A stretch of DNA of 64,000 nt, from contig NZ_VCQU01000007.1 in assembly GCF_012932915.1 (NCBI RefSeq), positions 124,001-188,000 of the forward strand, written 5' to 3'. Numbering within the stretch: position 1 is the stretch's first letter; each line of letters begins with the position of its first letter. Below are positions 46,150 to 55,776 of this stretch, piece by piece. Under the pieces are notes generated by a model. That model worked only from the letters and a program-made list of their open reading frames with translations. It did not search any database and was not told where the DNA came from. This stretch comes from Antrihabitans stalactiti. GTDB lineage: Bacteria > Actinomycetota > Actinomycetes > Mycobacteriales > Mycobacteriaceae. Both the position numbers and the translations under genes were made by a program.

Positions 46150-47230
46150 CTTCGTCGGTGTCGGGCTCACCCTCTTCCTGCTCGTCGGAAACGGCTTTTT
46201 CGTCGGCGCGGAATTCGCGCTCATCTCCGCCCGCCGTGACCGGTTGGAAGCACTTGCCGCACAGGGAAAGCGGAGTGCGAAGACTGTCATTCGGGCGGCC
46301 GAGAACCTACCGATCATGCTCGCCGCTGCACAGCTCGGCGTCACGATCTGTTCGATCCTGCTCGGTCGTATTGCCGAACCCGCGATTGCGCATCTGATCG
46401 AGCGGCCGCTCCATCTCGCCCACGTGCCGCAGGGACTGCTACACCCGATCGCTTTCACGATCGCGCTCGCGCTCGTCGTCATGCTGCACACACTGATCGG
46501 CGAGATGGTCCCGAAGAACATCGCCCTGGCCGGACCCGAGAAGACGGCGCTGCTGCTCGTCCCGATTCACCTGGCGTGGATTCGGTTGGCGAAACCCGTC
46601 ATCGGCTTCTACAACATCTGTGCCAACCTCTCGCTCCGACTACTGCGCATCGAGCCGAAAGACGAACTCGACGCGACCGTTTCCGCGGAAGAACTCGCCG
46701 AAGTGATCGGCGAATCGCGGTCCGAAGGGCTATTGGACGCCGAGGAGCACCGCAGGCTCACGCAGGCATTGGAGACACAGAACCGAACCGTCGCCGACGT
46801 GGTGATCCCGCTGGAGAAGGCGCGCTGCCTGCCACTCATCCACGGAGGCACGACCCTCGGGGCCATCGAGCAGTCGGTCACCGAGACCGGCTATTCGCGT
46901 TACCCGGTCCAAGCCGCCGATGGCACACTTGCCGGCTACATCCACCTCAAGGATGTGTTGGACGAAGTCGGCGACGACAAGTCGGGCCCGGACACGATCG
47001 TCCCGCGCGCCGGAATCCGCACGCTGCCCACGGTGAACATGACGGCGCCGCTGTACGAAGCGTTGGGCCGACTGCGCCGCGTCAGCAGCCACCTCGGTCG
47101 CGTCGTCGATGCCCAGGGCGTGACCGTCGGCATCGTCGCACTCGAGGATCTGGTCGAGGAGTTCGTCGGAACGATCCGCGACGCAACCCATCGCACGACC
47201 GATGTGGTTCCAGGACGCAACGCGAGCTGA
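46142..47230 (+). CDS. CNNM-type transporter-like protein without CorC_HlyC domain
   Basis: 362 residues. DUF21 at 1-185 ([60 protein letters not shown]) and a CBS pair at 200-345 ([40 protein letters not shown]). The C-terminal domain of its partner is absent, as in Rv1841c, so the two overlapping genes may form a heteromer. TGATG coupling to the next gene. Confidence 0.92.
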
Positions 47231-48072
47231 TGGAAGTTCTGGCTCAGGCGGAGTGGACAGCGCGCCGTGACCGTCACCGGACGCGAGTGGGCGAGCTGAT
47301 CGCGCCACACCTGGACCGGCAGGCGGCTGGCCAAGCCCATCCCGTCCTCGATTTCCTGTTCACCTACTACAGTCTGCGTCCGGCGCAACTGCAACGGTGG
47401 CATCCGGGATTCGGTGTCGGACTCGCCGGTGGTTCGGAGTACCTGAAATTCAAGGGCTACACGAGCTTCGACGGCGGCGCCACAGTGAACCCCGAGTTCC
47501 TACGGCACCGCCTACGGACCGTGGGGTTCATTGCCGAATTGCTGGCCGCCACGGCCGACCGGCCGGCGAATCTGGGGTGCTTCGGCCTGCACGAATGGGC
47601 GATGGTCCACCGCGCAGAGGACGTTCGCCACTCGGTCCCGCTGCGGCTCGGTAGTTCCGGGACCGACACAGTCGTCGAGTCGATGCCGCTGCGCTGCACA
47701 CATTTCGACGCATTCCGGTTCTTCACACCGTCCGCCGAGCCGCGGAATGCAGAACAGCTGACGCGCGACGATCAGGTCCGCACCGAGCAGCCCGGCTGCC
47801 TGCACGCCAATATGGACCTCTACAAGTGGTGCTACAAACTCAGTCCGCTGATCGAATCGGGGTTCCTCGTCGACTGCTTCGAATTGGCCATGGCCGCACG
47901 CGAATTGGATATGCGAGCCAGCCCCTACGATCTCGCCGACCTCGGCTACTCCCCTATCCAGGTCGAAACAGCGAGTGGCCGAGCCGAATACGTCCGTGAA
48001 CAAGCCGCGCTGGCTACTCGTGCCGCGGTCCTGCGGTCCGGGTTGCTGGACCGCTGCCGCTCACTTCTGTGA
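47230..48072 (+). CDS. Uncharacterised conserved actinobacterial protein (often called 3-methyladenine DNA glycosylase)
   Basis: 280 residues from ATG 47230, which overlaps the CNNM stop. Conserved-looking blocks: FLFTYYSLRPAQLQRWHPGF, LGCFGLHEWAMVHRAEDVRH, CTHFDAFRFFTPSAEPRN, MDLYKWCYKLSPLIESGFLV. No helix-hairpin-helix or AAG signature is visible, so the database glycosylase label has no support here. Cotranscribed with the CNNM pair. Its end overlaps the convergent glycosyltransferase by 59 bp. Confidence 0.8.
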   Translation: MEVLAQAEWTARRDRHRTRVGELIAPHLDRQAAGQAHPVLDFLFTYYSLRPAQLQRWHPGFGVGLAGGSEYLKFKGYTSFDGGATVNPEFLRHRLRTVGFIAELLAATADRPANLGCFGLHEWAMVHRAEDVRHSVPLRLGSSGTDTVVESMPLRCTHFDAFRFFTPSAEPRNAEQLTRDDQVRTEQPGCLHANMDLYKWCYKLSPLIESGFLVDCFELAMAARELDMRASPYDLADLGYSPIQVETASGRAEYVREQAALATRAAVLRSGLLDRCRSLL

Positions 48073-49135
48073 GGCGTTGGTAAAAGGCCAGGTGGGCTTC
48101 CGCCGCGTCCGCCCACCGATAGGTCGCGGCGAGCGCCCGACCCCTCGACCGCCGCGCCGCGTCAGGCCGGAGGGCATTACGAAGAGCGGTCGCCATGTCG
48201 GGTGGTGTGGCAACGTAATCGACAGCATCACCGAACACCTCCCGCAAGACCGGAAGATCGCGTGCGACAACGGGAATACCTGCCGCCAGGGCCTCCATCG
48301 CCGCGAGCCCGAAGCCTTCTTTCGTCGAAAAGAACGGCAGCACAGCCGCTCCCGCGACCAGACTCGGCAGATCGTCGTTGGGCACCGCGCCCAACACGAT
48401 TGGCCGGATGCCGAGTTCGGCCGCGCGCTCGTCGAACCCTGTCCGATAGTCGCGGTAATCGAACAGCGTCTCTCCACCGGCGAAGACGAGGTCGAGGTCC
48501 GGTTCGTCTGCTCGTAACAGCGCGAATGCCTCCAGCAGGTCGACGCTGCCTTTGCGCGGCTCGATGCCACCGACCGCCAACACGTACCTGCCGAACCGCG
48601 ACCGCCAGTGCGCAACAGCAGGTTCGGCCACGTCGGCGAACCGCTCGTACTCCACACCGTTCGGGATGACGACCGGCTCTAGACCCCAACCGTCACGCAC
48701 TTCCTGCGCGACGGCGGAGGACACACAAATTCGCGCCACCGGGTCGACTACCGCGCGTTCGTGACATGCCGCGAGTTCGGGAGTCGTGAAGTGGTCGAGG
48801 TGATGAATCGTCCGGACGCACGGAGCAGCTGCATTGGCGCTGATGCAGTCCTGCGCATGGACTATGTCGAAGTGCTCGCGCCGAAAGCCCGAACGCAACA
48901 CCGCAATCGATCGCATGATCCGAGCCCCGACCGTTTCGTTCGCGACCGTCGGAAACGGCACCAATTCGACCGACACGCTCGCATGGACCGTCCGGAAGAA
49001 GCTCTCGTCGCCGTCGCGCGCCAAGCTCCAGACCGTGACGTCCGCGCCCGCCGCAGCAAGGGCTTCGGCGAGATTCAGCGTATGGACGACACCGCCGCGC
49101 GGCTTCGTCGAGTAGGTGAGCAGGGCGATCCTCAT
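48014..49135 (-). CDS. GT4-family glycosyltransferase, MSMEG_0565 type
   Basis: 373 residues from ATG 49135. GT-B fold: MRIALLTYSTKPRGGVVHTL, DIVHAQDCISANAAAPCVRT, VIPNGVEYERFADV, AVGGIEPRKGSVDLLEAFAL, and the donor-site ExxxxxxxE in FSTKEGFGLAAMEALAAGIP. It is the last gene of the Nit1C-type operon and coupled by ATGA to the nitrilase-like gene. Why a sugar transferase ends this cluster is unknown; a glycosylated product or cofactor is possible. The end overlaps the convergent gene by 59 bp. Confidence 0.88.
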   Translation of the reverse strand: MRIALLTYSTKPRGGVVHTLNLAEALAAAGADVTVWSLARDGDESFFRTVHASVSVELVPFPTVANETVGARIMRSIAVLRSGFRREHFDIVHAQDCISANAAAPCVRTIHHLDHFTTPELAACHERAVVDPVARICVSSAVAQEVRDGWGLEPVVIPNGVEYERFADVAEPAVAHWRSRFGRYVLAVGGIEPRKGSVDLLEAFALLRADEPDLDLVFAGGETLFDYRDYRTGFDERAAELGIRPIVLGAVPNDDLPSLVAGAAVLPFFSTKEGFGLAAMEALAAGIPVVARDLPVLREVFGDAVDYVATPPDMATALRNALRPDAARRSRGRALAATYRWADAAEAHLAFYQRLTEVSGSGPATRTAGPRHE

Positions 49136-49986
49136 CCGCGCCCGCCCTTGTCGTCGAGCAGGTTGTGGTAGGCGTCGACGCGTCGCTCCTCGAGGTGACG
49201 CAACACTCGACGGGCTCGGTCCACTTCGGCGTCGATGTCGATATCCGCCACGGCCAGACCACCTTTGGACCACGTCTTGGCAAGAACGTCACCGCCCGGA
49301 CCGACCACCTTTGCCTGGCCGAGGAACCGTAGCGAGCCGGTGACGCCGGTCTGATTCGATGACGCGAGCACCACCTGGTTCTCCGCGGCACGCGCCATGT
49401 CGTACAGGTCGAACAACCGCGCCTGACGGTCGTTGGGCATGCGCGACGCACGGTCGGTGATGCTGGCCGGCCAGGCAGACAACGCCGCGATGGTGCGTGC
49501 GCCGTCCAGCGCCAGGGTTCGCGCCGATTCGGGGAACGTCTTGTCGTAGTCGATCAGCATTCCCATCCGCCCGATGGGCGTGTCGAACGCCGTAAACCCC
49601 TCTCCCGCTGCGTAAGCCAGGTGCTCGCCTGCCGGCTGGTGGACCTTGCGATGATGCCCCAACACGCCATCGCCGGTCAGACAGCTCGCCGCGTTGTAGC
49701 GAAGGTCGCCCGCACGTTCGGTGAAGCCGATGCAGACGGTCATGTCACCGGCCATCGAGCACAGCAGCTTGATCTCCGGCCCGTCTGGATCGATCGCTTC
49801 GGGAACCGAGGACAGGTCCGGGTTGAGCAACTCCCCCAGATAGCCGCCGAGCGTCGCGTCCGGCAACACCAGCAGGTCGACCTTCTCCACTGTCAGCCGC
49901 TCGAGAATGCCACCGAGTTTCTCGAGCGCGCGCCCGATCTCCGGACCGAAATGGCCTGCCAGAGCGGCGACCCGGGTCGTACCCAT
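49132..49986 (-). CDS. Nitrilase-fold protein lacking the catalytic Glu and Cys
   Basis: 284 residues. Overall similar to the nitrilase at 51528, but the triad is altered: LLVLPDATLGGYL has Asp where the other has the catalytic Glu (PEACLGG), and GRMGMLIDYDKTFPES has Asp (GAC) where the other has the catalytic Cys (MQICYDKAFPEA). The Lys of HHRKVHQP is kept. The ORF is intact with normal codon use, so it looks like a selected non-enzymatic or repurposed paralogue, perhaps a partner of NitC. Coupled at both ends in the operon. Confidence 0.85.
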   Translation of the reverse strand: MGTTRVAALAGHFGPEIGRALEKLGGILERLTVEKVDLLVLPDATLGGYLGELLNPDLSSVPEAIDPDGPEIKLLCSMAGDMTVCIGFTERAGDLRYNAASCLTGDGVLGHHRKVHQPAGEHLAYAAGEGFTAFDTPIGRMGMLIDYDKTFPESARTLALDGARTIAALSAWPASITDRASRMPNDRQARLFDLYDMARAAENQVVLASSNQTGVTGSLRFLGQAKVVGPGGDVLAKTWSKGGLAVADIDIDAEVDRARRVLRHLEERRVDAYHNLLDDKGGRG

Positions 49987-49988
49987 CG

Positions 49989-51233
49989 CTATGCAGCCGC
50001 GCTTTCGCGGACCCGCAGGGTGATCTGCTCGGCGAGGAATTCCGCGTCGCGGGCGACGGCGGCGAAGCGGCCCGAACCCCAGGTGTGTTGCCAGGGCAGC
50101 CCGAGGAAGAACAGCCCCTGGGCGGCCGTCACGCCGCGGTTGTGGCAGGGATGGCCTTCGCCGTCGAATACGCCGACGCGCAGCCAACGGTAGTCGGTGC
50201 GGAAGCCGACCGACCACACGACCGACGTGATGTTGCACTGCGTCAGGTCCAGCTCGGTCACCTCCTGCTCCGGTCGCCAGACCGGTACGTACCTAGGCTC
50301 CTCTGGCGCGTCGATTCCCGACCGTGCGATATAGGCGTCGATGGAATCCTTGATGCTTTCCGCGACGGCGTCCGCGGCATCGAGTGACGCCTCCAAGGTC
50401 GGCGTGAACTGCACCGTCGTATCCGAGACATCGATCATCCTGCCGTACAACGACATTCCTTCCAACGCGAACTGGCGAAGGTCGATGTCTCGGCCACCGT
50501 CACGGCCGGTGACGTAGTGATTGGTGTTCTCCCGCTTGCCGAGTCCGCCCGGCTGATCCTGGATAGGTACGTCGTAGTGCCCCATGTCGTGCAGCCAGGC
50601 AACGCAGTCACGACCGCGGTAGAACCGTGCGACACGCGGTGCCTTGCCCGCAACCAAGTGCACCTTGCGCCCGTCGAGGTGCAGGTCCTCGGCGATCTGC
50701 GCGCCGGACTGCCCCGTTCCGACGACCATCACTTCGCCGTCGGGAAGCTCAGCGCTGCCACGGTATTCGGAGGAGTGCAGTTGGACGATCGATTCAGGAA
50801 GTTTTTCGGCGAAACGGGGAATCGTCGGAATGTGGTAGCCACCAACGGCAATCACCACCTGGTCTGTGTGGATACGGCCGTCCGTCGTTTCGACGTCGTA
50901 GCCGCCCCTCGCGGCATGTTGTACCGACGTGACCGCAACCCGTTCTCGCACAGGCGCTCCGAACGAATCGGCATAGGACCGGACGAATTCGTAGACTTCG
51001 TCGCGCTTCATGAAGCCATGTGGATCGGCGCCGCTGTAGGCATAGCCCGGCAACACACACTGCCAGTTCGGAGTGACGAGCGTGAAGTTGTTCCAGCGGC
51101 TGTCACGCCACTCGTGTGCGACTGTATCGCGTTCGAGGACAACGTGATCGATACCGCGTTGCGTGAGATGCCAGCTGATCGACAGTCCGGCCTGGCCGCC
51201 GCCGACCACGACGACGTCTCGATGCTCGGTCAT
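49989..51233 (-). CDS. nitH: Flavin-dependent monooxygenase, NitH (MSMEG_0569 type)
   Basis: 414 residues from ATG 51233. FAD fold DVVVVGGGQAGLSISWHLTQ, second dinucleotide fold VMVVGTGQSGAQIAEDLHLD near 172, and the YUC/FMO-like WRDSRWNNFTLVTPNWQCVL block. In Nit1C clusters this oxygenase is proposed to act on a nitrile or cyanide-derived intermediate. ATGA overlap with nitG. Confidence 0.9.
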   Translation of the reverse strand: MTEHRDVVVVGGGQAGLSISWHLTQRGIDHVVLERDTVAHEWRDSRWNNFTLVTPNWQCVLPGYAYSGADPHGFMKRDEVYEFVRSYADSFGAPVRERVAVTSVQHAARGGYDVETTDGRIHTDQVVIAVGGYHIPTIPRFAEKLPESIVQLHSSEYRGSAELPDGEVMVVGTGQSGAQIAEDLHLDGRKVHLVAGKAPRVARFYRGRDCVAWLHDMGHYDVPIQDQPGGLGKRENTNHYVTGRDGGRDIDLRQFALEGMSLYGRMIDVSDTTVQFTPTLEASLDAADAVAESIKDSIDAYIARSGIDAPEEPRYVPVWRPEQEVTELDLTQCNITSVVWSVGFRTDYRWLRVGVFDGEGHPCHNRGVTAAQGLFFLGLPWQHTWGSGRFAAVARDAEFLAEQITLRVRESAAA

Positions 51234-51535
51234 TTCGATGCTCCCTGCGGTGCTGGAAGTTGCGGTGTCATCGACAGCACTCGGACCGTTCCCGCCACAC
51301 CATGGGCGGCTTCGCGGATTTCGGCGAGTTGCTGCATAGCCGACGTGCAATAAGTGCCGTATTTCGCGCGGACCCGTTCGCTCGCTTCGGTCAGCGCAGT
51401 GTCGACCAACGCGAGGAATTCGGTTACCGGATAGGAACTTCCAGTAGTGAGGTAATCGTGCATCACCAGCGACGGCGAGTAGCAGGACTGCCGCTGCCCA
51501 CCGGGCCACTCGACCAGAAACGTCATCTCAGGCAT
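51230..51535 (-). CDS. nitG: NitG, MSMEG_0570 type nitrogen-starvation protein
   Basis: 101 residues. MPEMTFLVEWPGGQRQSCYS, SLVMHDYLTTGSSYPVTEFL and a helical second half. Small conserved partner found only in Nit1C clusters; function unknown. It overlaps nitC by 8 bp and nitH by 4 bp, so a fixed stoichiometry is likely. Confidence 0.85.
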   Translation of the reverse strand: MPEMTFLVEWPGGQRQSCYSPSLVMHDYLTTGSSYPVTEFLALVDTALTEASERVRAKYGTYCTSAMQQLAEIREAAHGVAGTVRVLSMTPQLPAPQGASK

Positions 51536-52409
51536 GGACAGCCTCCAGTGCGAGTGCCTTGTAGAGGTGCGGGCGTCGATCGCGCAGGTTGTACATTCCG
51601 CCGCCCCTGGCTAGCCCGAGCACATGCTCGACGTCGACGGTCGCGGTCGCCAAACCTGGCTCTGTTCCTGTCGTCGCGAGTATGTCGCCGCCCGGTCCGA
51701 CGATCTTTGCGCTGCAGACGAAGCGCAGCGACCCGAACGTCCCCGCCTGATTCGAAGCGACCCAGACGATTTGGTTCTCGACGGCCCGTGCGCGATCGAA
51801 GATATCGAACCGCTGCTTCCACCGGTCTTCCTCGAGATTCGGGGCGGTCGCCGTCCTCGCGGTGGGCCATGCCGACAGCGAGGTGACGATCTCGGCGCCG
51901 TCCAGCGCGAGCATCCGTGCGGCCTCTGGAAACGCTTTGTCGTAGCAGATCTGCATTCCCATGCGTCCGACTGGCGTGTCGAACGCACGGTACTCGTCTC
52001 CGGCTGCGTAGCAGAGGTTTTCACCCAGTGGCTGGTGAACCTTGCGGTAGGAACCGAGGATTCCGTCGCCGGTGAGCGTCACCGCCGTGTTGTATCGGGT
52101 GTCGCCGTCGGCCTCGCAGAAACCGAGGGTGATGACGAGATCGCCTGCCATGTCGATGACGCGACGCACTTCTGGTCCGTCGAGTTCCAACGCTGGGGGC
52201 AAGCTGCGCAGCCGTCGCGCCTTGGCCTCGTCGCTTTCCTCGCCACCGCCCAGGCTGGGCAGATACCCGCCCAAGCACGCCTCGGGCAGGACCAGGAGCT
52301 GGGTCCCCCGGGCTCGTGCCTGGTCGATCAATCCGGCGATCGTGCGATAGCCGGCTTCCATGTCGCGGCCGAATTCTGCTGCCGCCACCGATATTGTGAC
52401 GCCGTTCAT
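51528..52409 (-). CDS. nitC: Nitrilase NitC (Nit1 type)
   Basis: 293 residues from ATG 52409. Catalytic set complete: Glu in LLVLPEACLGGYLPSLGG, Lys in GSYRKVHQPLGENL, Cys in GRMGMQICYDKAFPEAARML, and the second Glu/Asn region in ARAVENQIVWVASNQAGTFG. Branch-1 nitrilase hydrolysing a nitrile to acid and ammonia; in proteobacterial Nit1C clusters it is required for growth on cyanide. It ends overlapping nitG. Confidence 0.92.
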   Translation of the reverse strand: MNGVTISVAAAEFGRDMEAGYRTIAGLIDQARARGTQLLVLPEACLGGYLPSLGGGEESDEAKARRLRSLPPALELDGPEVRRVIDMAGDLVITLGFCEADGDTRYNTAVTLTGDGILGSYRKVHQPLGENLCYAAGDEYRAFDTPVGRMGMQICYDKAFPEAARMLALDGAEIVTSLSAWPTARTATAPNLEEDRWKQRFDIFDRARAVENQIVWVASNQAGTFGSLRFVCSAKIVGPGGDILATTGTEPGLATATVDVEHVLGLARGGGMYNLRDRRPHLYKALALEAVHA

Positions 52410-53815
52410 GATTCTCCCAATCCTGTGACGGTGCCGTGCACCGCTCGTGTGATGGCGCCGTCGGGCCAGCGCAAGCCGACTCCCGGCGTCGAGGTGAGCC
52501 GACCGCACACGGCCGACGTCGCCGGGCCGGCCGGCGCGACGCGCGCTCCGGGCGAATCGGCTGTGATCATTGCGAAGCCGGGGAAGCATGTGAGCCACTC
52601 TCCGACCGATGCACCTGCTGGCCGCGGGACTCGTGCGACCTCGAGTTCTGCACCGAGCCCGCTTGCTTCTGCGAGCATTCCTGTGGTTCCTGCGAGCCCC
52701 GCCATGCTGACGTCCTTCGCGGCCGCAGGTGCCGTTCCTGGAACGAACTCGGCCATGGCTCGCAGCTCGTCGCCGGTGCGGCGAGACGTCGAATCCCATT
52801 GTCGACCTTGATATCCCCGCCGCCAGCCGCCGCCAAGATCGGCAGTAAGCCGGAGCTCGTCGCCGAGCCTGCCGCCACCGCCGCGCACCGGCCGCTGCGC
52901 ACGTCCGAGCGCGGTGACCGACAGTGCCCCAGGCACACCGAGCTGAGTGTGCCCACCCAGTACTGGGACAGCCCACGCTTCGCTCGCCCGGGCCAGACCC
53001 CGGATGACCCGCGTCAAAATCGAATGATTGGGTGCACCGACGGAGTCGAGCATGCCGATCGGCGACGCGCCCATCGCCGACAGGTCGTTCAGATTCACCA
53101 ATGCGGCACACCAGCCGGCCCATTCCGGGTCACGCTCGACCATCGACGGGATGATGGCGTCGCACGCTGCGATGATGTCGCTGCCTGGCAACGGAACTCC
53201 GTCGTCACCGCGAAATCCCCTGCCACCCAACCCCATCGGCTGCCCGCGCAGCGGGGCGAGAGCCGTGGCCAGCACGGCTTTGGTCGACTGGACCAGCCGC
53301 TCGACCCGGTCGATCGGCCAGCGCATGTGCACGTGCGGAACCTCACCGATCTCGCTGTCGGCCAGCCGAATCCAACCGAGTCTGGCGAACAGCTGCTCGT
53401 AGCGGGCCTGCACTGTCGCTTCGAACCGCAGGACGTCGTTGGCCTCGGCATGCGCGCACGCCGATTGCACCAGCGCGGGGCCGACGCCCTTCGTCCGACA
53501 ACTCTTGTCGACGACCAATCGGCTGCCCGTCCACCAGCCGATATCATCGGCGGTCGCCGGCGCCAGCCGAACGCCGCCGAGCACAGCACCTTCGGGATCG
53601 ATTGCGACGAGTACGCGCAGGCGTGGATCGTCGTCCAGGTCGTCGCGGTCGCTGCCGACGAACAGGCCCTGATCTACGACGAACGAGTCCCGCCGAAGCC
53701 TGCGGTACGCCGCGATCTGCGAAGAATCGGCCAGCTGGACCAGGAAGCCGAGACTTGTCGGCGCCTGGGGAGCCGGCCCGGTGAGGACGCTGAAATCCAC
53801 CTCGGAGAGTGTCAT
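52406..53815 (-). CDS. Fused GNAT acyltransferase and AIR-synthase-like protein (NitE+NitF)
   Basis: 469 residues from ATG 53815. Residues 20-165 are a GNAT domain (RLRRDSFVVDQGLFVGSDRD, VLGGVRLAPATADDIGWWTG, KGVGPALVQSACAHAEANDV, EQLFARLGWIRLADSEIGEV). Residues 190-465 resemble PurM/AIR synthase (ALAPLRGQPMGLGGRGFRGD, ALVNLNDLSAMGASPIGMLD, AWAVPVLGGHTQLGVPGALS). In proteobacteria these are separate genes; the fusion matches MSMEG_0567. Proposed to build or modify a substrate for the nitrilase using ATP. Confidence 0.88.
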   Translation of the reverse strand: MTLSEVDFSVLTGPAPQAPTSLGFLVQLADSSQIAAYRRLRRDSFVVDQGLFVGSDRDDLDDDPRLRVLVAIDPEGAVLGGVRLAPATADDIGWWTGSRLVVDKSCRTKGVGPALVQSACAHAEANDVLRFEATVQARYEQLFARLGWIRLADSEIGEVPHVHMRWPIDRVERLVQSTKAVLATALAPLRGQPMGLGGRGFRGDDGVPLPGSDIIAACDAIIPSMVERDPEWAGWCAALVNLNDLSAMGASPIGMLDSVGAPNHSILTRVIRGLARASEAWAVPVLGGHTQLGVPGALSVTALGRAQRPVRGGGGRLGDELRLTADLGGGWRRGYQGRQWDSTSRRTGDELRAMAEFVPGTAPAAAKDVSMAGLAGTTGMLAEASGLGAELEVARVPRPAGASVGEWLTCFPGFAMITADSPGARVAPAGPATSAVCGRLTSTPGVGLRWPDGAITRAVHGTVTGLGES

Positions 53816-53816
53816 C

Positions 53817-54905
53817 TCAGCCTCCGGCGCTCTGCAGCACGCTGCAGGCACCGCACGCCGCACAGCCTGCTCGTTGGTCCGCGCCTGCCATGCCCGCCCG
53901 TTGCAGTTCCTTTGCGACCCTTCGGGTCACGTCTTCGAGCACGTCGCGATTCGGAGCGACCGCACCGTCGACATCGACCGCGAGCGTTCCCGCCAGCGGC
54001 CGAAACGGCACGACGAACGGGTAGACGCCCATGTCGATGAGTTCGGCTGCACCGGATACCAATTCGTCCGGATCCTCGCCCAGCCCGACCAGAAGATAGG
54101 TCGACACCTGGTTGCGACCGAACACCCGGACCGCTTCGGCCCACGCCGCCCGGTACTCGGCAAGCGGCACAGTCGCCTTGCCCGGCATCCACTTCCTGCG
54201 GACCTCGTCGTCCAGCGACTCGACGTGAATCCCGATCGCGTCGGCACCCGCCTCGCGAAGCTCGGTGATTGTCGCCAGATCTCCCGGCGGCTCGCACTGC
54301 ACCTGGATCGGCAGATCCGGCACAACAGCTTTCACGGCCCGCACGCAGCGCGCCAGATGCCGCGCACCTCGATCCTTCGCGGCCGACGTCCCTGTCGTCA
54401 TCACCATCTGCTTGACGCCGTCGAGCCTGACCGCGGCCTCGGCAACCTCCGCAAGCTGCTCGGGGCGTTTGACGGCGATGGTGCTGCCGGCCTCGAGCGA
54501 TGCCTCGATGGAACAGAATCGGCACCGCTGATCTTCGCCGTAGCGAATGCAGGTCTGAACCACGGTGGTGGCCAGCACATTCGATCCGTGCAGTTTGGCG
54601 ATCTTCTCGTAGGACACGCCGTCGGCGGTCTGCATGTCGTAGAACTGCGGTCGACGGACCGGCTCGATCGCCATGCCGATGTCGGCGCCGTCGAGCAACA
54701 ACCTATTTCCGACAACGGAATACGGACTGTCGGAACGGATCGGGATGGCAGCGCCGGCACCCGCGATCAACACATGGCCGTCGTCGCTAGGCCCGGCACC
54801 GGAACGGCGCTGCACCGGAACATATCCCGTCGCTTCGCTCGCCCCGCCAACATCGACTCTGATGCCGAGCAGCGCGATATCTACACGGGTTGACAAGCCA
54901 GTCAT
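53817..54905 (-). CDS. nitD: Radical SAM protein NitD (MSMEG_0568 type)
   Basis: 362 residues. The cluster-binding region is TCIRYGEDQRCRFCSIEASL near 117-136, spaced C-x8-C-x2-C rather than the common CxxxCxxC; the GGE-like segment is less clear and the barrel strands follow (GVKQMVMTTGTSAAKDRGAR, AIGIHVESLDDEVRRKW). The last residues AGCAACGACSVLQ add four Cys that may hold an auxiliary cluster. A required component of Nit1C; chemistry unknown. Confidence 0.9.
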   Translation of the reverse strand: MTGLSTRVDIALLGIRVDVGGASEATGYVPVQRRSGAGPSDDGHVLIAGAGAAIPIRSDSPYSVVGNRLLLDGADIGMAIEPVRRPQFYDMQTADGVSYEKIAKLHGSNVLATTVVQTCIRYGEDQRCRFCSIEASLEAGSTIAVKRPEQLAEVAEAAVRLDGVKQMVMTTGTSAAKDRGARHLARCVRAVKAVVPDLPIQVQCEPPGDLATITELREAGADAIGIHVESLDDEVRRKWMPGKATVPLAEYRAAWAEAVRVFGRNQVSTYLLVGLGEDPDELVSGAAELIDMGVYPFVVPFRPLAGTLAVDVDGAVAPNRDVLEDVTRRVAKELQRAGMAGADQRAGCAACGACSVLQSAGG

Positions 54906-54917
54906 GGGATATCGGCC

Positions 54918-55454
54918 TCAGACCTGGTAGGTCGAGTTGATGATCGCGCCCTTGCGTGCGTAGTGAATAAGCGCGTCCTGAACGTCGAGCGGATGGGCCG
55001 GTATCACGCCTTCGATGAGGTCTTCTTCACGCGCACCGTGGAGTGCGAGACCGAAGCGGCAGCAGAAGACTTTCCCGCCTTCCTTGATGAACGTGGCAAG
55101 CGAGTCGTTGATGTTCTGCTCGCCCGGGAAGCCGCTGTCACCGGTAGTCGGAAAGCCGCGGTTGGCAATGGCATTGATCGCGCCGGGCCCGTAGAAGTAG
55201 ATCGCGGAGTCGAATCCTTTGCGCAGCGCTCGCGTCGCTTGCAGTACTGCGACGAAGCTGACCGACGACTCGTGCGCGATGCCATGGACGAGAGTGAAAT
55301 ACGTTTCGCCACCCTCGGCCTTGTAGTCCGGGAAGATCTTGGTGGAGCCATAAATGTTGGTGCCTTTGGGCAGAGCGGGATGTGGGATCTCGCCGAGTGA
55401 CTTTGCGATGTTGGCTTCGATTGCCTGGTCTATGTCGGTGGTGGGTGCAGACAC
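54918..55454 (-). CDS. nitB: NitB, MSMEG_0572/Sll0783 type nitrogen-starvation protein
   Basis: 178 residues from GTG 55454, with AGGAGG five bases upstream; the frame is open further up but without a ribosome site. DsrE-like features: GETYFTLVHGIAHESSVSFV, DSAIYFYGPGAINAIANRGF, EGGKVFCCRFGLALHGAREE with a Cys pair. First gene of the eight-gene operon. Family members are induced by nitrogen starvation in cyanobacteria; function unknown. Confidence 0.9.
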   Translation of the reverse strand: MSAPTTDIDQAIEANIAKSLGEIPHPALPKGTNIYGSTKIFPDYKAEGGETYFTLVHGIAHESSVSFVAVLQATRALRKGFDSAIYFYGPGAINAIANRGFPTTGDSGFPGEQNINDSLATFIKEGGKVFCCRFGLALHGAREEDLIEGVIPAHPLDVQDALIHYARKGAIINSTYQV

Positions 55455-55597
55455 TTGGTCCTCCTGCGATTGGGCGTTGATTCCGACTTGCGGATGCACC
55501 AAGTTGACGCCCACCGTGTTGCCGATTGGTCACGTTGGGAACAATCCCAGGTTGCCGGAATCTCACCGGTACCGATTGCTCGGCATCGTTGAATTGC

Positions 55598-55700: not shown

Positions 55701-55776
55701 GATGTCATGACCAGGGAGCATCCGACTCGTGGCCGTTACTTTCGGGAAACTGCAGGAGAACAAACCGAACGCAAAA

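Follow-up and report, generated by a model that had tools for sequence, protein, structure and literature searches.

A locus of the actinobacterium Antrihabitans stalactiti raises the question of what pathway is served when most gene families of the Nit1C cluster share one operon with a second nitrilase-fold gene and a glycosyltransferase (GT) gene. The locus lies in a 64,000-nucleotide (nt) stretch of contig NZ_VCQU01000007.1 (positions 124,001 to 188,000), hereafter the window, in which all coordinates are given. Eight codirectional genes occupy positions 48014 to 55454 of the minus strand in the order nitB, nitD, a nitEF fusion, N1, nitG, nitH, N2, and GT (B-D-EF-N1-G-H-N2-GT), where N1 is a carbon-nitrogen (CN) hydrolase in the position of nitC and N2 is the second nitrilase-fold protein. 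Successive spacings are 12, 1, −4, −8, −4, 2, and −4 nt (−8 to 12 nt overall), in keeping with a preliminary description of the sequence, which had noted that every junction overlaps or nearly so. That description took the locus for a new eight-gene variant. However, the same eight families make up the gpr cluster of Mycobacterium smegmatis, in which the eight open reading frames MSMEG_0565 to MSMEG_0572 have been reported as GlnR dependent (PMC6039565; this and the other papers cited are represented here by the sections available to us). The operon is therefore the usual Actinomycetes form of the already described Nit1C/gpr cluster. What had been overlooked lies in N2, which was read as a plain nitrilase-fold protein despite the loss of its catalytic cysteine and glutamate.

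Both N1 (51528..52409, minus strand, 293 amino acids [aa]) and N2 (49132..49986, minus strand, 284 aa, MSMEG_0566 type by its cluster position) match the Pfam CN_hydrolase domain (for N2, PF00795, 102 bits versus 23.2), which bears out the claim that the operon holds an additional nitrilase-fold gene. We compared their catalytic positions across named loci and across larger collections of 123 N2 and 132 N1 sequences, in which named and unnamed records overlap and which include, for N2, one partial copy from genome G480. The Glu-Lys-Cys triad of N1 (E43-K123-C155) is present as E, K, and C in 79 of 79 sequences (78 named loci plus the window); over all 132 sequences, C is found in 132, E in 131 (with one gap), and K in 131 (with one other residue). 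N2 lacks this triad: D146 stands in place of Cys and D43 in place of Glu, and Lys is retained as K114. The Cys-to-Asp replacement was found in 74 of 74 sequences (73 named loci plus the window) and in 123/123 of the full collection. Lys is likewise kept in all 123 sequences, and the Glu position is occupied by D in 110, H in 10, G in 1, Y in 1, and a gap in 1. The sequence around the Asp and Lys residues is strongly conserved. Of the alignment columns that are at least 93% fixed in each of the two proteins, 66 agree between N1 and N2 and 7 do not; the catalytic Glu and Cys positions account for two of these seven.

N2 is under strong purifying selection. Mean pairwise identity over the 74 loci with both genes is 67.1% for N2 versus 62.5% for N1. 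Simple Nei-Gojobori estimates of dN/dS, obtained at dS above 1, are 0.069, 0.118, and 0.089 for N2 in comparisons with a locus of the same genus (L069) and two Nocardia loci (L153 and L155, respectively), and 0.050, 0.094, and 0.102 for N1 in the same three comparisons. The predicted structure of N2 keeps the CN hydrolase fold (pLDDT 89.1), with amidases and carbamoylases as its closest matches (Foldseek E = 3.8e-23 to 6mg6), and D146 aligns with the CN hydrolase Cys position, where 6mg6 has a C that we take to be the catalytic residue. Judged from its sequence, N2 is unlikely to be the ordinary amidase of its annotation; most simply, it would have originated by duplication of N1 within the Actinomycetes. 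Its M. smegmatis counterpart, MSMEG_0566, has been labeled an aliphatic amidase (PMC4222082, PMC4617892, and PMC6039565). This label is doubtful because the N2 proteins of all seven Mycobacterium/Mycolicibacterium loci carry Asp, and it should not be taken to mean a Cys amidase unless M. smegmatis differs from the relatives compared. The annotation of MSMEG_0566-type proteins thus needs to be checked, and N2 is the first protein to assay: a conserved Cys-to-Asp paralogue under strong purifying selection makes it testable whether a nitrilase fold can do chemistry without cysteine.

The gene preceding nitG had been identified as nitC, and the operon had been set in the context of cyanide assimilation. 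Against the NitC/Nit6803 model TIGR04048, for which the cut-off is 502.6 bits, N1 scored 42.1 and N2 scored 27.1 bits, which places both outside the subfamily 1 nitrilases and invalidates the nitC assignment; no gene in the whole genome reached the cut-off (best, 197 bits on contig C7). N1 is 24 to 26% identical to seven plasmid-encoded NitC proteins and 47% identical to N2, and it carries the motif CYDKAFPE at the place where all seven NitC proteins carry CWEHYNP. In a phylogenetic tree, the NitC proteins are set apart by a branch with 100/100 support, and N2 forms one group (95/79). The nearest solved relatives of N1 by sequence are 3ivz (a hyperthermophile nitrilase/beta-ureidopropionase), PH0642, and N-carbamoylputrescine amidase. 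These comparisons indicate that N1 is a hydrolase of another subfamily that replaces NitC. Because N1 is not NitC, the locus, for all its six shared core families, falls outside Nit1C in the sense of Podar, a cluster linked by definition to nitrilases of subfamily 1.

The operon might nevertheless serve to assimilate cyanide or nitriles, like its Pseudomonas counterpart, if N1 took over the function of NitC. The presence of six of the seven Nit1C core families and the annotation of the best solved N1 relative, 3ivz, as a nitrilase/beta-ureidopropionase are consistent with such a role, but the TIGR04048 score, low NitC identity, separate branch, and divergent motif of N1, together with the lack of any gene over the NitC cut-off in the genome, make it highly improbable. 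In M. smegmatis, deletion of the whole gpr operon gave peroxide, NADPH, and biofilm phenotypes, and the word cyanide is absent from the available sections of that report (PMC6039565). Cyanide assimilation by the window operon is therefore not supported by these comparisons, and we reject it as the default reading since N1 is not NitC, although N1 itself may still act on nitriles. The preliminary suggestion of a glycosylated nitrile-derived compound is conjecture. Results on cyanide from Pseudomonas should not be carried over to gpr-type clusters, because the cluster hydrolase is not NitC and the active site of a second hydrolase is altered in a conserved manner.

N2 and GT would be passengers, according to the preliminary description, if they were often found away from the other genes. 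In a survey of 201 genomes from the family of the window (counts include related genomes), NitD exceeded its cut-off in 48, GT was present in 48, and N2 (more than 370 bits) was present in 48, and the three sets of genomes were identical. This co-occurrence persists despite a reshuffled gene order: 80 named Actinomycetota loci yielded 20 gene strings, some of which differ only through contig ends or a missed small NitG. Of the 73 loci with N2, 70 have GT no more than 250 bp away from it. Among the 80 named loci, these 73 contain N2, and for 6 of the remaining 7 it is encoded at another place in the same genome, always with Asp, which leaves Saccharopolyspora shandongensis as the only named genome of this set without it. 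N2 was always accompanied by N1 (73/73 named N2 loci and 48/48 family genomes), whereas N1-type proteins without N2 occur in Saccharopolyspora and in G100, G121, and G143, three genomes from other classes of actinobacteria, whose five N1-type copies all bear Cys.

A passenger status of N2 and GT could draw on three loci (L163, L164, and L202) that hold GT without N2, although N2 lies elsewhere in the genome for the first two, and on the Klebsiella and Pantoea cluster regions that we opened, which show neither gene. We nonetheless consider it scarcely credible. N2 and GT are not passengers in the Actinomycetes because, of 201 genomes, the 48 with NitD are also the 48 with N2 and GT, across reshuffled gene orders, and the strong purifying selection on N2 argues likewise; we reject the passenger reading for this class, and the idea that the eight genes belong together holds. 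The cluster regions of 47 family genomes were read besides that of G480. In the latter, a partial, disrupted N2 copy and a GT fragment lie on opposite strands, and the NitD match is absent (L124, 7548-8246); the rest of the cluster was not seen in the 18 kb read, and relatives hold intact copies.

Previous work on M. smegmatis reported induction of gpr via GlnR of about 100-fold at limiting nitrogen and more than 500-fold in nitrogen-free medium (PMC6039565), as well as induction and GlnR binding upstream of MSMEG_0572 (PMC4222082 and PMC3662644). In the window, two GlnR-box-like sites precede nitB: GTGACCAATCGGCAAC (55518..55533, minus strand), some 64 nt before the nitB start, and GTTACTTTCGGGAAAC (55735..55750, plus strand). 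Both are perfect matches, at the level of sequence, to the search pattern GTnAC-n6-GnAAC, which we take to be the GlnR consensus. This pattern occurs five times in the window versus 1.74 expected (5 of 100 shuffles reach five), with two occurrences no more than 300 bp upstream of nitB and one within the operon. Four Nocardia loci (L154, L155, L158, and L161) have similar sites between −111 and −135 relative to the aligned start of nitB. With at most one mismatch allowed, GlnR-like boxes were found in 33 of 70 upstream regions, compared to 16.2% of 1,400 pieces drawn at random from these loci and 18.6% of upstream regions after shuffling (P = 1.5e-9, with relatedness ignored). The 70 regions comprise 69 loci and the window; 11 of 81 were dropped in which the upstream sequence was short, absent, or occupied by another cluster gene. 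In Mycobacteriales loci, a subset chosen afterwards by genus name, a GlnR-like site was present in 22 of 23.

We propose, tentatively and with a little less than even confidence, that the operon encodes a GlnR-controlled pathway, induced by nitrogen starvation, in which N2 is a nonhydrolyzing, ligand-binding partner beside the Cys amidase N1. GlnR would switch the operon on at nitrogen starvation, and the radical SAM protein NitD, the NitEF fusion, NitH, and NitG would assemble or alter a small molecule that contains nitrogen. N1 would act on an amide-type intermediate, hydrolyzing a C-N bond. N2, no longer a Cys hydrolase, would bind the same kind of ligand without hydrolyzing it, most likely as a subunit of a mixed N1-N2 oligomer or by passing the intermediate on, and the GT4 enzyme would glycosylate the product; this order of the chemistry is one that we infer. 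There is a precedent for mixed complexes in the heteromeric nitrilases of sorghum (PMC5154151).

Several observations weigh against this proposal. Outside the Mycobacteriales, a GlnR-like site was found in 10 of 46 loci, barely over background. The N1 and N2 genes lie within 250 bp of each other in merely 16 of 73 loci, and in four genomes N1 and H are found at a separate locus, with N2-GT remaining with D-EF-G (B was seen in three of these, and the fourth is cut by a contig end). A partnership of N2 with the GT or D-EF step explains the proximity of N2 to GT and the split loci no less well than one with N1 does, and Asp and Lys may be invariant because they take part in catalysis rather than merely in binding. 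Genomes of genus g207 offer a natural two-module dissection of the cluster, one locus holding (B)-D-EF-(N1)-G-N2-GT and a second holding (B)-N1-H (L088 to L091 with L116 to L118 and L123; L079 to L082 with L119 to L122).

Because N2 needs N1 asymmetrically and is linked to GT and to D-EF, it is expected to be either a ligand-binding partner or a non-Cys enzyme. In the second case, Asp146 and Lys114 would form a non-Cys catalytic center acting on a pathway intermediate, which we regard as unlikely on balance, though a serious contender. The invariance of both residues in 123/123 N2 sequences, the strong conservation around them, the retained fold, and a dN/dS similar to that of N1 point in this direction, and drift of Asp and Lys would be expected were N2 a mere scaffold. 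However, the second carboxylate is not fixed, as the residue counts at the Glu position given above indicate, and no relative with an Asp-Lys center is named among the structure and sequence matches, a weak objection, since the listings of these matches show no active sites. A more specific form, which we hold to be slightly less likely still, is that N2 founds a Cys-free nitrilase-fold family whose Asp-Lys center performs or gates a new step between N1 and GT, with the cluster making a glycosylated nitrogen starvation metabolite. If true, this actinobacterial metabolite would be made by chemistry unlike that of NitC clusters.

It has also been proposed for gpr that reductases of the operon regenerate NADPH under nitrogen starvation. 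Deletion of the M. smegmatis cluster lowers the NADPH/NADP ratio and peroxide survival (PMC6039565), in agreement with this idea, but NitH alone is named as an oxidoreductase by the families matched here, and the selenoprotein fusion put forward in the available sections of the same report is not conserved; we therefore judge a primarily redox role improbable. The proposed fusion joins MSMEG_0571 and MSMEG_0569 by UGA readthrough (PMC6039565). In the window (region 49989-51530), the frame indeed stays open past the TGA of N1, giving a 506-codon open reading frame. All 78 N1 genes of the named loci end in TGA, which favors fusion rather than opposing it. The shared frame of N1 and H in the window results from two short overlaps (−8, then −4). 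Across 59 loci with H no more than 700 bp on, the frame is open in 32, out of frame in 14, and interrupted by stops in 13. A search for selenocysteine machinery, made in this genome only, found no tRNA-Sec over the gathering score (best, 40.9 versus 47 bits). A selenoprotein fusion as a conserved feature is thus not supported, given an open frame in 32 of 59 loci and a tRNA-Sec score below the cut-off.

The remaining genes of the operon were assigned with NCBIfam models at curated cut-offs; N1 and N2 have no curated family of their own. On the minus strand, nitB (54918..55454, MSMEG_0572/Sll0783 family; 178 aa from a GTG at 55454) matches TIGR04044 (250.1 bits versus a cut-off of 109.85), and nitD (53817..54905, 362 aa), encoding a radical SAM protein of the MSMEG_0568 family, matches TIGR04043 (535.2 versus 303.7). 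The nitEF fusion (52406..53815, 469 aa) joins GNAT and AIR-synthase-like domains (TIGR04045, 84.3 versus 68.45; TIGR04050, 500.2 versus 312.2). The small nitG product (51230..51535, 101 aa, MSMEG_0570 family) matches TIGR04042 (114.5 versus 79.85), and the flavin-dependent oxidoreductase encoded by nitH (49989..51233, 414 aa, MSMEG_0569 family) matches TIGR04046 (659.9 versus 498.35). The GT4 glycosyltransferase (48014..49135, 373 aa, MSMEG_0565 family) matches TIGR04047 (452.8 versus 259.85). The identities first given to nitB, nitD, the nitEF fusion, nitG, nitH, and the GT4 gene are accordingly upheld. E-x7-E is a motif of GT4 glycosyltransferases; it reads EGFGLAAME in the window and is present in 74 of 76 GT sequences from named loci. 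NitG gave a confident AlphaFold2 model (pLDDT 94) with no clear match among solved structures in the PDB. The closest named loci by NitD include those of Nocardia aurea (82%) and N. aurantiaca (81%). At its 3′ end, the GT gene shares 59 bp with a convergent plus-strand open frame (46576-48072).

Outside the actinobacteria, our sampling was confined to plasmids. In the plasmid collection, 513 records held NitD (E = 1e-40), and 4 held N2 (E = 1e-30), all from Rhodococcus; NitD was common on plasmids of Klebsiella (373 records) and Escherichia (30 records). Eight plasmid regions were opened, seven of them proteobacterial; one, which was unannotated, was read computationally. All seven proteobacterial regions carry NitC, and N2 was not seen in any of them. 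GT was present in five of the seven (Acetobacter, Caballeronia, Aquabacterium, Agrobacterium, and Rhizobium) and was not seen in the Klebsiella and Pantoea regions. When Nit1C was defined, Burkholderia and Rubrivivax were already noted to have a glycosyltransferase gene that separates ORF 5 from ORF 6 (Podar 2005, PMC1199592), so GT is not, as first thought, an extra peculiar to the actinobacterial form. The neighborhood comparison suggested in the preliminary description thus divides its two extra genes: N2 was seen only in sampled Actinomycetes, and GT belongs to proteobacterial clusters as well. Because of this difference, GT and N2 appear from their distribution to be separate additions rather than one.

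Other genes accompany the cluster in some lineages. An AMP-binding (adenylate-forming) ligase gene often lies in or beside it in some actinobacteria, Klebsiella, Pantoea, and Acetobacter (L092, L101, L110, 23 of the 80 loci L153 to L232, L128, L129, and L134) and may be a further pathway gene; none was detected at 42 to 64 kb of the window. A pyridoxal phosphate (PLP)-dependent aminotransferase-family gene lies divergently and directly upstream of nitB in four proteobacterial regions (within L130 to L134) and is codirectional with nitB in Acetobacter (L128). Other actinobacterial classes (L136 to L144) have a remote cluster with NitB, NitD, and a weak NitE, in which NitF and often a glycosyltransferase are on the opposite strand. 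In L137, L140, and L141, uncharacterized proteins, including an amidohydrolase-like one in two of the three loci, are encoded between NitB and NitD.

Among known systems, the window operon most resembles the gpr cluster, with which it shares all eight families in one codirectional operon, two CN hydrolases matched by position and kind, GlnR-box-like sites upstream, and N2-GT at the operon end. It differs in gene order, the gpr order being B-N1-G-H-D-EF-N2-GT as inferred from locus numbers, product names, and Mycobacterium/Mycolicibacterium loci rather than from the M. smegmatis sequence itself, and in that MSMEG_0566 bears a published aliphatic amidase label, whereas the MSMEG_0566-type relatives analyzed lack the catalytic Cys. 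No product of the gpr cluster was found in the literature searched. With Nit1C (Podar 2005; nitBCDEFGH of Pseudomonas), the window shares the NitB, D, E, F, G, and H families; in contrast, it has N1 in place of the subfamily 1 nitrilase NitC, has E and F fused, and adds N2. Like some alpha- and betaproteobacterial clusters, it also contains GT. The GT is a member of the MSMEG_0565 family by the curated cut-off of TIGR04047, positioned after N2 in the window but between nitF and nitG in the five proteobacterial regions. N-carbamoylputrescine amidase and PH0642-type CN hydrolases are the nearest solved relatives of N1 and N2, but against the AguB cut-off of 410.25 bits N1 (104.4 bits) and N2 (72.8 bits) both fall far below, and N2 additionally lacks the Cys and Glu. 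Finally, the sorghum nitrilases NIT4A/NIT4B2, which are of another kind, set a precedent: two paralogues form a single complex, and what it produces is subsequently glucosylated (PMC5154151).

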